DNA from: Candidatus Pacearchaeota archaeon
GTDB taxonomy: Archaea; Nanobdellota; Nanobdellia; Pacearchaeales; GW2011-AR1
DNA: 44,742 bases
Reading direction: 5' to 3'
Assembly: GCA_009694725.1 (NCBI GenBank)
Contig: SICV01000006.1
Location: forward strand, 1 to 44,742
Shown: positions 7,258 to 35,891 of the stretch, in pieces
Layout of the letters: the number at the start of each line of letters is the position of its first letter
Position numbering within the stretch: the stretch's first letter is position 1
Program-made: the position numbers and the translations under genes
Notes under the pieces: generated by a model
Databases searched by the model: none
What the model was told of the DNA's origin: nothing
What the model saw: the letters and a program-made list of their open reading frames with translations, nothing else

Positions 7258-9234
7258 TTATCGGGGAGCGATCTTTACTCTCTGCTGGAATGATTTTGTT
7301 GATCGACCGTAGACCTTTGTTACTCCATATATCAGAAGTAGGATAATAATAATCCCCACTATTATTGACGTATAGTTTGTAGAGGGAGTGGATGGTTGTT
7401 GGTTGATTGCTTCAGTTGATTGTTCTTCAGTAGTGCTTGCTGTCGAGAGGACCTCTTGTTTTATTGTTTGTATAAATAGCTGTGCCTTTCCTATCGTTAT
7501 CCCTTCATAGCGTATGAGCAGATCATCCTGGCCGTCTGCATTACTATCCACCCTCATATCTGCTCCTGCTTGTGCCGATAGGTTGAAACTCTCCGAGTGT
7601 AGTGTTATTCGGGCACTGGTGGCATTATACCAGAATACTTTCAAGCTGTGCTCTTCGTTATAGAGTGTAAATAGAACAGTATCCTTGTAGGAAAGATTCA
7701 ACGTTATTCCCTTTTCAAGAGTATTCTTTGTGATCGAATAGTTCTGAGCATTGGTTCTTTCTCCACTGCTGCCCCCCGAACTAGAGGAAGTTGCGACTGT
7801 TGGTGCAGTAATGGTAAACGTTACGGTCCGAGATGAGTCTCCGTTTCCAATCGTATCCAGACAGAATGCTCTCAAGCTATGTGTTCCTGCGCTCAGGTCG
7901 CTGAGTGTTCCATTAAAGTGTGTTTGGGAATCGTTCGTGAGCGTCACCATGGTGGTGTTTGAATCTAATGTATAATTACAGGTACCATTCTGATTGATCG
8001 TAATATTGATGAGGATACTTGCCCCGACAGTATATGTCGTGCTCGTAGGAGAGCTTATGGTTACGTTTGGCGCAGACACATCGCTTATATTCTCCATTCT
8101 TAATTGGTAGAGTTTATCATCGTAGCTTCCCATGTATATATATCCGTTTGCGATTGCTGCAGAGGAAGCCACCGGGCCTCCTGTTGTGACATTGGCTATC
8201 GCTTGACTGATATTTGACGCATTCAATTGATAGATTTGATGGTCATTGCTTCCGATGTACACATAGCCATTTGCAACTGCTGGTGAAGAAGAAATAAATC
8301 CTCCAGTGGTGAAATTAGCAATCATTTGACTGATATTCGATGCATTCAACTGATAGAGTGTTCTATCATCTGATCCGACATAAGCGAATCCGTTTGCTAT
8401 TGCCACAGATGAAAAGACCTCCATGCCTGTAGTGAAATTAGCTACTCCTTGCGTGATATTAGAGGCGTTGAGTTGGTAGAGTTTATTATCGTAACTTCCA
8501 ATATAGAGAAATCCGTTGTATACTGCGGGTGACGAGGCAATAACTGATCCTGTTGTATAGGTCGCATATACTTGTGATATATTGGTCGCGTTGAGTTGGT
8601 AGAGTTTATTATCGTAACTTCCAATATAGAGAAATCCGTTCGCAATAGCGGGAGTTGAATAAATGGCGGCCATGGTGTAATTCGCTATCAACTGACTCAC
8701 ATTGGACGCATTCAATTGATAGAGCCTACCGCTCATATCTCCAATATAGGCGAAACCATTTGAGATGATTGGAGAAGATTGTATTGAATCGTTCGTTGTA
8801 TAATTTGTTATATACTGACTCACATTGGACGCATTCAATTGATAGATTTGACGGTCATTGCTTCCGATGTACACATAGCCATTCACTACCGCTGGCGATG
8901 AGGGGCCACCAGACCCTATGGAATAGTTAGCGATCATTTGACTGACATTCGATGCATTTACTTGATACAATACGCCGCTATGAGTACCAAAATAGACATA
9001 TCCATTCGCCACTGCCGGTGTTGCTTCGATATTCCCTCCAGCATCAAATGTAGCATTATTTAATCCCCAGACTAGGCTATATGTAACGCCATCCCAACTG
9101 GTGTGGTTTAACCAACGCGCTTTCATCGCCCATTCTGCTAATGAGCCTTCAGAATTTGCAGACATGACAAAAAACGACAGATATGCGATCATTATCGTAC
9201 TTACTGCTACACTAATTATCACTCTCTTATTCAC
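7258..9234 (-). CDS. Surface PQQ-like beta-propeller repeat protein with C-terminal TM
   Basis: Eight ~41-aa repeats (PAVANGYVYIGSNDxxIYQLNASNxSQxIANxTTG), C-terminal TM IIVGIIIILLLIYG. Start placed at GTG 9234 (VNKRVIISVAVST) because of the TATA box ATTATAAAG ~25 nt upstream. Confidence 0.85.
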   Translation of the reverse strand: MNKRVIISVAVSTIMIAYLSFFVMSANSEGSLAEWAMKARWLNHTSWDGVTYSLVWGLNNATFDAGGNIEATPAVANGYVYFGTHSGVLYQVNASNVSQMIANYSIGSGGPSSPAVVNGYVYIGSNDRQIYQLNASNVSQYITNYTTNDSIQSSPIISNGFAYIGDMSGRLYQLNASNVSQLIANYTMAAIYSTPAIANGFLYIGSYDNKLYQLNATNISQVYATYTTGSVIASSPAVYNGFLYIGSYDNKLYQLNASNITQGVANFTTGMEVFSSVAIANGFAYVGSDDRTLYQLNASNISQMIANFTTGGFISSSPAVANGYVYIGSNDHQIYQLNASNISQAIANVTTGGPVASSAAIANGYIYMGSYDDKLYQLRMENISDVSAPNVTISSPTSTTYTVGASILINITINQNGTCNYTLDSNTTMVTLTNDSQTHFNGTLSDLSAGTHSLRAFCLDTIGNGDSSRTVTFTITAPTVATSSSSGGSSGERTNAQNYSITKNTLEKGITLNLSYKDTVLFTLYNEEHSLKVFWYNATSARITLHSESFNLSAQAGADMRVDSNADGQDDLLIRYEGITIGKAQLFIQTIKQEVLSTASTTEEQSTEAINQQPSTPSTNYTSIIVGIIIILLLIYGVTKVYGRSTKSFQQRVKIAPR

Positions 9235-9406
9235 CAGATACCTCACTAATTTTACTTTATAATCCTTTCTAAGTGATACATGAGAGAAAACGCCCGGACC
9301 GGTCCACAAAAATAGAATTCTATTTTTGGGAACTTCAACTTACAGTGAAGTTGTAGTAATCGAACCTGTTGCAGGGTCGAGTAGTGAGAGGTAAAACCTC
9401 TCAAGA

Positions 9407-9537
9407 CGCCCGGACCAGGAATCGAACCTGGGTATCCGTAAGGAAACGAGTTTTCTTGAGTGCATCGTCTGGGGTGATGCGTGAGGGGTTTCCCCTACGC
9501 TTTCGAGACTCGCGCAGTGCCATTGTGCCATCCGGGC
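9407..9537 (-). tRNA. tRNA-Ser(CGA) with 49-nt intron (about 9453-9501)
   Basis: GCCCGGA/TCCGGGC acceptor, G73, anticodon stem CGAGT/ACTCG, loop CTCGAA(A), long variable arm TTTCCTTACGGATAC, T-arm CCAGGTTCGATTCCTGG. Confidence 0.88.
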
Positions 9538-29862: not shown

Positions 29863-29891
29863 GGTGCTTTCCCCCTTGAAAGAGTGGCGAG

Positions 29892-29963
29892 AGCGAAAGG
29901 CGAGAATTGAACTCGCTCCTGAAGCTCCACATGCTTCTGCGCTACCGTTACGCTACAATCGCC
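29892..29963 (-). tRNA. tRNA-His(GUG), copy 1 (G-1 at 29963)
   Basis: D-arm GCGTAACGGTAGCGC, anticodon arm GAAGC-ATGTGGA-GCTTC, T-arm GCGAGTTCAATTCTCGC; acceptor GCGATTG/CTTTCGC has two U-U mismatches. Confidence 0.7.
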
Positions 29964-31438: not shown

Positions 31439-31568
31439 AGCTTTGGGAGAGAGATGAGGGCTATAAAGGTGTGGTTTAGGGTTTCTTTTGTAAAGTATCT
31501 GATGTACGTTTGGTGAGGGGTTCAGGAAAGTAAAAAGGAAAAAGTACTCCCACTCACGAGCTTAGAAA

Positions 31569-31640
31569 AGCGAGGGGTGGGAGTCGAACCCACTCTAACG
31601 GCGCCACAGGCCGTTGTGCTACCGTTACACCACGATCGCC
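31569..31640 (-). tRNA. tRNA-His(GUG), copy 2 (G-1 at 31640)
   Basis: D-arm GTGTAACGGTAGCAC, anticodon arm ACGGC-CTGTGGC-GCCGT, T-arm GTGGGTTCGACTCCCAC; acceptor GCGATCG/CCCTCGC mismatched at 5:68 and 6:67. Confidence 0.72.
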
Positions 31641-34582: not shown

Positions 34583-34737
34583 TGGTCCTGCCAAGATTTG
34601 AACTTGGGACCCCCGCTGTCCTCAGGCGTAGGGGGAAACCCCTTACGCATCACCCCTAAACGGGAGACGACAACCTCTTCCTTATGGAGGAGGCTCATAT
34701 AAGAGCGGTGCTCTAAACCGGGCTGAGCTACAGGACC
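34583..34737 (-). tRNA. tRNA-Ile(UAU) with 79-nt intron (about 34619-34697)
   Basis: GGTCCTG/CAGGACC acceptor, D-arm GCTC..GAGC, anticodon stem CCGCT/AGCGG, loop CTTATA(C), T-arm CCAAGTTCAAATCTTGG. Confidence 0.85.
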
Positions 34738-34775: not shown

Positions 34776-35891
34776 TTAGTAATGTTCTCGTCGTTGTGCG
34801 CGCATCACTACTCGTGTTTGTGCTTCCTGTGCGAGCATGTTAAAGAGGGGCAAGATACTTCGTTGGGTGCCTAGTTTACCGGTGCAGGTTATAGGGAGAC
34901 CTAATTCGGAGAGTAACGAGGGTTTAATACCAAACATATCGGCAACGTCTCCTGGTTTGAGATAAAAAGTGTCTGTTCGTTTGAGCGCCCAACGTGCGAG
35001 ATCACTTCCGGACACTTTTCTTGTTTTGTTTATGAGGCATGAGGGAAGGGTGCCTCGGGTGGTGTTGTCTCGGATACGTTCTTTCTTTTTTCCGGTATGC
35101 TGGGCTGCTTCTGCAAGGGTATATCGTTCGAGAGGATTCAAGCTATGCTCTTGGAGATAGCGTTCAATACGAGCAGGGAGATAGTCCCGGGTGAGTCCTT
35201 GATAGAACTCATCGTTCTTTTTGGGGAGGAACGTGTGTTCGAGTGTAGTGTTATGTACTTTTGCAAGTAATGCTCCTAACTGGTAGGTGTCCAGATAATT
35301 TTGAGGTGGCCAGCTATGTGTTGGCTGGTTTTTGGCAGGTTGTACAAATCCTGCTTTGAGGATTCGTTCGGCGAGCGGATGATCACAGACAAGCCAATCA
35401 GTGAGTGTTTCATGGGGAATGAGGTGCCATTCGCGTACACGAGGAGGGGCTTGTTTATTTCGTCTCCGTTGTTCAGCAATGTGGTGCTGTTGTTTTGTAA
35501 AGTAATCAAACCAGCTTACGCCCGTGTATGCGTTATACAGTGTTTCGAGTCTTTCTTCTGGTTTCTTTTTTTCGAGCTGTGGGGGACTTATTCCCTTTGA
35601 GCCAATTATAATCTCTTCACATGGTTTTTCCCATTGCATACTAATGACGCTTGCAAGTGTGTTTGTTTGATAAGGGATCCGTTCCCCTTCAAGTGGTCTG
35701 TGTATTCCTTCATGTACTAAGAGTCTTGCTTGTTCGAGTTGTCGAATACAATAGGCACTCATCCCTAGTTTTCGTTGTACTCCTCGCCCATAGTAGTCTT
35801 CCCCCCCTATTACTAAGGGGCAGGAGAGGGAGGGAACCACGGTTTGTTGATGTTTGATAAGGATGCGGAGATCTAGTTCTGAGTTGAGCAT
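34776..35891 (-). CDS. Protein with two MerR/Xis-like helix-turn-helix segments
   Basis: YTLAEAAQHTGKKKERIRDNTTRGTLPSCLINKTRKVSGSDLARWALKR and FYLKPGDVADMFGIKPSLLSELGLP near the C-terminus. Confidence 0.55.
   Translation of the reverse strand: MLNSELDLRILIKHQQTVVPSLSCPLVIGGEDYYGRGVQRKLGMSAYCIRQLEQARLLVHEGIHRPLEGERIPYQTNTLASVISMQWEKPCEEIIIGSKGISPPQLEKKKPEERLETLYNAYTGVSWFDYFTKQQHHIAEQRRRNKQAPPRVREWHLIPHETLTDWLVCDHPLAERILKAGFVQPAKNQPTHSWPPQNYLDTYQLGALLAKVHNTTLEHTFLPKKNDEFYQGLTRDYLPARIERYLQEHSLNPLERYTLAEAAQHTGKKKERIRDNTTRGTLPSCLINKTRKVSGSDLARWALKRTDTFYLKPGDVADMFGIKPSLLSELGLPITCTGKLGTQRSILPLFNMLAQEAQTRVVMRAQRREHY

Follow-up and report, generated by a model that had tools for sequence, protein, structure and literature searches.

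tRNA Genes of the Window and Their Introns

The window, the whole 44,742 nt stretch analysed here, makes up contig C10 in an archaeal draft genome (G000) of ten contigs and 636 kb, 86.5% complete and 0.5% contaminated. Genome size and gene content suggest a DPANN-like archaeon. The two tRNA genes of interest in the window carry introns, the borders of which were set with ARAGORN and by checking the spliced product, and both genes lie on the minus strand, as the first-pass annotation had stated and as their matches to Rfam RF00005 bear out. The gene for tRNA-Ser(CGA) (9407..9537; exons 9502-9537 and 9407-9452; 39.5 bits) has a 49-nt intron at position 37/38 (9453..9501), and that for tRNA-Ile(UAU) (34583..34737; exons 34698-34737 and 34583-34618; 52.1 bits) has a 79-nt intron (34619..34697). 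A tRNA-Ile with the anticodon UAU is unusual among archaea, and the gene is intron-bearing in all three members of the genus that were compared (G000, G001 and G002). With introns removed, ARAGORN reads clean tRNA-Ser(CGA) and tRNA-Ile(UAU), as well as clean tRNA-Thr(UGU) and tRNA-Tyr(GUA) at two further loci described below.

The two introns of the window contain copies of the same element. In the Ser intron, which is nearly all element, the copy is in sense orientation (9462..9500, minus strand), with a first hairpin at 9479-9500 and a second stem-loop at about 9462-9480 (GCATC...GATGC), and it is detected by pattern, covariance model, folding and nhmmer (E=2e-8). The copy in the Ile intron lies on the plus strand, antisense to the tRNA (34626..34671), with the first hairpin at 34626-34648 and the tail and second stem-loop at 34649-34671, and is detected by pattern, covariance model, alignment and nhmmer (E=7e-9). 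A shared hairpin of about 31 nt had been annotated at 9471-9500 (minus strand) and 34626-34656 (plus strand), and both its placement and the match of 29/31 positions are confirmed, the differences being one inserted G and one C/T. As also annotated, AGACGA follows in both introns, as AGACGA in Ser and as TAAACGGG-AGACGA in Ile. The extent given was too short: the hairpin is real but the second hairpin had been missed, and the element spans about 40-47 nt. A 21-nt core pattern matches the window only at these two copies, with none expected from 100 dinucleotide shuffles, and a repeat search of the window returned the pair as the second inverted repeat (25 nt at 96%).

Elsewhere in the window, a minus-strand open reading frame at 7258-9309 has seven 41-residue (123-nt) tandem repeats and looks like a surface protein of the beta-propeller type. 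Two genes for tRNA-His(GUG) lie on the same strand within 2 kb (29891-29962 and 31568-31640); G001 likewise has two tRNA-His genes, which differ from each other.

Copies in the Genome and in Relatives

Further copies were sought with the pattern GCRTAGN{8,30}ACGCWTCACC, using the reversed pattern as a control, and with a covariance model. The pattern matches six times in G000, once in G002 and not at all in other relatives, and the reversed pattern is absent from G000; the covariance model gives six matches in G000 (E 1e-8 to 2e-6) and two in G002. All six strong copies of G000 are at tRNA loci, and none is scattered between genes genome-wide. Besides the Ser (C10:9473-9500, sense) and Ile (C10:34626-34654, antisense) introns, where the coordinates are pattern spans, they occupy the introns of tRNA-Thr(UGU) (C5:64168-64197, sense) and tRNA-Tyr(GUA) (C8:34707-34734, sense), the leader about 100 nt upstream of tRNA-Tyr(GUA) (C8:34861-34890, on the tRNA's own strand), and the 16S-23S rRNA spacer, where the copy abuts the 5' end of tRNA-Ala(UGC) and is antisense to the operon (C2:9930-9962). 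A decayed additional copy is present in the Tyr intron at C8:34667. G002 has an exact copy in its Ser(CGA) intron, a diverged one in its Arg(UCG) intron, and a decayed third in its Tyr leader (model E=9.5), the last identified from where it lies and from how it aligns with the G002 Arg copy. In the Ser and Thr genes the element is approximately the whole intron, and in the Ile, Tyr and G002 Arg genes it sits within an older one.

The copies thus form one homologous family, with at least six strong members at tRNA loci and in both orientations. The first-pass annotation had pictured a mobile hairpin resident in tRNA introns. More copies do exist, all at tRNA loci, in both orientations and in the introns of unrelated tRNAs, and comparison with congeners shows them to be recent gains, but the Tyr-leader and rRNA-spacer copies lie outside introns, so that the element is not confined to them.

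No copy at useful significance was found in G001, and no strong copy in about 90 other relatives. A covariance search of 92 genomes gave a single match in another genus (G022, E=0.23) and nothing further below E=0.2 except one in G000 (C2:9676, E=0.007), which is within a reading frame and was judged to be chance, as were model matches on C7 and C8 (E 3.7-5.3). A laxer search of four genomes picked up a weak element-like hairpin in G008, a member of another genus of the same family (GCCTAGGA...TCCTAAGGC TTCACCCTCCTT, E=0.007, G008:C56:1876-1910); this hairpin and a similar repeat lie between the gene for an RtcB-like tRNA ligase and the next gene. In a wider pattern scan of genome contigs, none of the matches listed had the full hairpin, and the 23 matches to a 17-nt pattern in viral contigs were all without it, so no viral carrier was seen.

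The tRNA footprint is about 2.7% of the genome, and the chance of all six strong copies falling inside it is roughly 4e-10, or 4e-4 if only non-coding DNA, taken as 10% of the genome, can receive insertions. Confinement to tRNA loci may reflect targeting, survival, or an origin from tRNA-derived RNA.

At the Tyr locus, tRNA finders detected the 5' half alone, and a split tRNA was therefore entertained; this reading was dropped when the missing 3' half turned up some 170 nt downstream and the spliced product proved to be tRNA-Tyr. The leader of this gene in G000 (C8, about 34780-34950) and G002 is long and has a TATA-like box ahead of it, and is absent from G001. A base-paired stem surrounds the element there, with ACA near the end, and the leader could be a co-transcribed small RNA. 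Apart from tRNA, no curated model of Rfam 15 matches in the window or at the Tyr locus.

Anatomy and Folding of the Element

The element consists of two tandem hairpins, about 40-50 nt in all: GCGTAGGGG-loop-CCCCTNACGC comes first, then [A/T]TCACCC, then another stem-loop. The first hairpin is GCGT-AGGGG / CCCCT-N-ACGC, and its 3' arm bears a one-nucleotide bulge in every copy. The second begins within the closing GC of the first and continues [A/T]TCACC..., its 3' arm tracking the 5' arm copy by copy (TTCACC/GGTGAA in Thr, GCATC/GATGC in Ser, CCTCC/GGAGG in G002 Arg). Two subtypes were distinguished, type A with GGGG/CCCC and type B with GGAACC/GGTTCC. Pairwise alignments among type-A copies exceed shuffled sequences by z=9 to 16 for most pairs; the G002 Arg copy aligns to the G000 spacer copy at z=12, and the G002 Ser intron to the Ile copy over 43 nt at z=15. 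After insertion, the second hairpin would be expected to drift, with the first hairpin and the TCACCC tail remaining similar.

Folds with both hairpins reach z=-5.3 (Thr copy), the second stem still forms in diverged copies, and the G002 Arg copy has a compensatory change of G-C to A-U. Covariation is formally weak, with one pair changed on both sides and 66/500 shuffles reaching as much. In 9/10 copies the better fold is that of the complementary strand. On the element strand, wobble-type mismatches comprise 27 A.C against 5 G.U, an A.C there being a G.U on the other strand. Composition accounts for part of this one-sided count; if the strand bias is real, the strand left untranscribed in the Ser, Thr and Tyr introns is the one on which structure is, or once was, maintained.

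Features of this kind might be expected if the element were functional as RNA or DNA, for instance as a hairpin bound by a protein during tRNA or rRNA processing, and had been selected or had arisen by convergence. Its structure has been kept, as seen from the Arg pair and the persistent second stem, and the mismatches are nearly all of one kind, as if the structure of the complementary strand mattered. The thin covariation and the compositional part of the mismatch count weaken this reading, and it sits poorly with high sequence identity in unrelated genes and in both orientations, with the orthologous Thr gene of a congener that has no element, and with the lack of a strong copy in about 90 relatives. 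We give it a slim chance. The antisense motif GTGATG...CTGA was considered as a box C/D or K-turn element and set aside, there being no guide arrangement and no Rfam match.

Filled and Empty Sites

Gains within the genus were assessed by comparison with its two other genomes, G001 and G002. The clearest case is Thr(UGU): the G002 gene is intronless, all 73 of its exon bases equal the spliced G000 tRNA, and a neighbouring tRNA-Val is common to both genomes, while the G000 gene has a 50-nt intron with full-length homology to the Ser intron. The insertion is exact but for an A ambiguity, and no target-site duplication is visible. The Ser(CGA) intron is present in G000 and G002 and absent in G001. 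The gene for tRNA-Tyr(GUA) has an old intron common to G000, G001, G002 and G008, to which G000 alone adds a block of about 95 nt consisting of two copies, one clear and the other decayed; G002 has 4 nt at this place. At Ile(UAU), the introns of G001 and G002 have two hairpins and no element, showing that the intron is older than the element, and in G000 the antisense element occupies the position of the second hairpin. The rRNA spacer of G000 is about 85 nt longer than that of G002 right before tRNA-Ala, and the extra sequence ends in the antisense copy. At the Ile and spacer sites the element replaces diverged older sequence rather than filling a clean empty site. Lastly, Arg(UCG) has an intron in G001 and G002, with the element in that of G002 only. 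The element therefore both creates new introns and nests in old ones, and, judged from these sequence comparisons, the cases show that it was gained recently at several sites.

Ectopic gene conversion or template switching could instead have homogenised existing intron and spacer hairpins, with no mobile unit. The Tyr-leader copy would suit such exchange, being type A in G000 and type B in G002, like the G002 Arg intron copy. The core of the Ser intron is identical over 29 nt between G000 and G002, set against 84% nucleotide identity in a neighbouring gene, a difference that at the sequence level suggests constraint or homogenisation. Conversion has difficulty, however, with the Thr gene, which gained an entire intron and had no prior hairpin to convert, and with the Tyr and spacer copies, which are net insertions of about 85-95 nt. 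We regard conversion as improbable.

Orientation and Route of Insertion

The opposite orientation of the Ser and Ile copies had been noted from the asymmetry of the hairpin, and it is borne out. In local alignment with 1000 shuffles the pair scores 54 when inverted (z=11.5) and 20 when direct; against the Ser copies, the Ile copy gives inverted scores of 54 and 66 and a direct score of 20. The gap between inverted and direct scores indicates that the inversion is no artefact of the palindrome. The spacer copy behaves similarly, scoring 52 inverted and 32 direct against the G002 Arg copy, and 47 and 13 against the decayed Tyr copy. The bulge (CCCCT-N-ACGC) and the tail ATCACCCC fall on the same side of the hairpin in the Ser and Ile copies, and this agreement of bulge and tail establishes opposite orientation for the Ile and spacer copies, the two on which the evidence for antisense insertion stands.

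If the element spread by RNA only, an excised (circular) intron would reverse-splice into another pre-tRNA, be reverse transcribed and recombine into the gene. The Ser and Thr introns fit this route well, as their homology covers the full length, each is a sense intron placed exactly at 37/38, and their 3' ends are shared; such placement is what intron-specific transposition would give, and it counts against a DNA-level mobile repeat. Similar transposed introns are reported from Thermoproteales (Fujishima 2010, as cited in PMC4033280). Reverse splicing cannot, however, give the antisense copies (Ile and spacer) or a copy in the rRNA spacer beside tRNA-Ala unless non-homologous insertion of cDNA follows, and insertion at the DNA or cDNA level is favoured for this reason. 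The mechanism of archaeal tRNA intron transposition is stated to be unknown in a review, which supposes a DNA-level process (PMC4090602). We think an RNA-only route unlikely.

On balance, we favour the reading that the element is a mobile but non-autonomous repeat, a unit of two tandem hairpins that is restricted to one genus and strongly prefers tRNA transcription units. We hold this to be somewhat better than an even proposition; the element's mobility we infer from the distribution of the copies. Weighing against it, a search for Y1 transposase found no mobilising enzyme, and target-site duplications are not visible. Insertion would occur at the DNA level, directly or via cDNA of the excised intron, and either orientation could therefore arise. 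When the element landed in sense at tRNA position 37/38, its hairpins would form the body of the intron, and pairing of a short 3' segment with the anticodon loop would create a splice site of the bulge-helix type. The splicing endonuclease would then remove the element and the tRNA would survive, so that the insertion is tolerated. An antisense copy would persist only if its sequence is removed by other means, as part of an older intron (Ile) or in the processing of the spacer (rRNA ITS), and it is only in such places that antisense copies are seen.

The Ser and Thr introns comprise the element plus about nine nucleotides, some of them able to base-pair with the anticodon loop. In the predicted fold of the G002 Ser precursor, a 6-bp CUCGAA/UUCGAG helix with a 3-nt bulge may provide a usable endonuclease site. 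The G000 Thr and Ser precursors fold into only a weak, relaxed bulge-helix-bulge form.

Comparison with Known Systems

The closest known system is the transposition of tRNA introns in Thermoproteales (2010, MBE 27:2233), as outlined in PMC4033280 and PMC4090602. In the accounts given there, near-identical introns occur in tRNAs of different specificity, at splice-competent positions, and were gained after species divergence; here, similar intron sequence is found across Ser, Thr, Tyr and Ile in G000, and across Ser and Arg in G002. The present element differs from the introns so described in that not every copy is a sense intron: one copy is antisense within an older intron, and two lie outside introns, one of them in a tRNA leader and the other, again antisense, in an rRNA spacer. 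Its host, moreover, is a small-genome archaeon outside Thermoproteales, and Thr(UGU) offers a clean filled/empty pair. In Caldiarchaeum populations, a tRNA-Thr(GGU) intron was gained through an integrating element (PMC3293823). That case is alike in that an intron was gained in a short time, close genomes were compared and a mobile element was credited, but its model is integrase recombination of attP with attB in the tRNA, whereas the present element is a multi-copy repeat of about 45 nt with no integrase or att duplication in evidence.

REP/RAYT and IS200/IS605-derived repeats are likewise short palindromic hairpins with a conserved single-strand foot, found in either orientation. They differ in being scattered between genes rather than placed at tRNA loci, and the G000 assembly (87% complete) has no match to the Y1 transposase (PF01797), in a search that covered Y1 alone and gave a positive control in 5/14 genomes. 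Classical MITE features are also missing, as the hairpins are tandem rather than terminal inverted repeats and the Thr pair is without a target-site duplication.

Introner elements of eukaryotes, mobile spliceosomal introns mentioned in PMC11782384, resemble the present element in that insertion turns a short repeat into a spliced intron, which lets it spread at low cost. The element would use the tRNA splicing endonuclease and ligase rather than the spliceosome, and neither transposon ends nor target-site duplications were seen. It could tentatively be viewed as an archaeal counterpart of introners, a non-autonomous repeat that inserts into DNA at tRNA loci either way round and becomes a spliced intron when in sense in the anticodon loop, in which case tRNA intron gain would be DNA (or cDNA) transposition and not reverse splicing; we rate this further step as possible, though open to doubt. 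No inverted or non-intron repeat comparable to this one turned up in a literature search that had most subscription papers outside its reach. The element bears on how archaeal tRNA genes acquire introns and on how such introns move. Its family combines young copies that have matched empty sites, antisense copies, and copies nested in older introns, which together let RNA-level reverse splicing be told from DNA-level insertion, and it gives a traceable source sequence for new tRNA introns.

Other Two-Hairpin Blocks

In the Tyr intron of G001, a separate block of two hairpins, about 57 nt long and unrelated in sequence, stands in the same place as the G000 element. The intron of tRNA-Lys(CUU) (G000:C7:38735-38863) is 54 nt long with two tandem hairpins, and measures 14 nt in G002, a difference that may reflect the gain of a further two-hairpin block with a sequence of its own.
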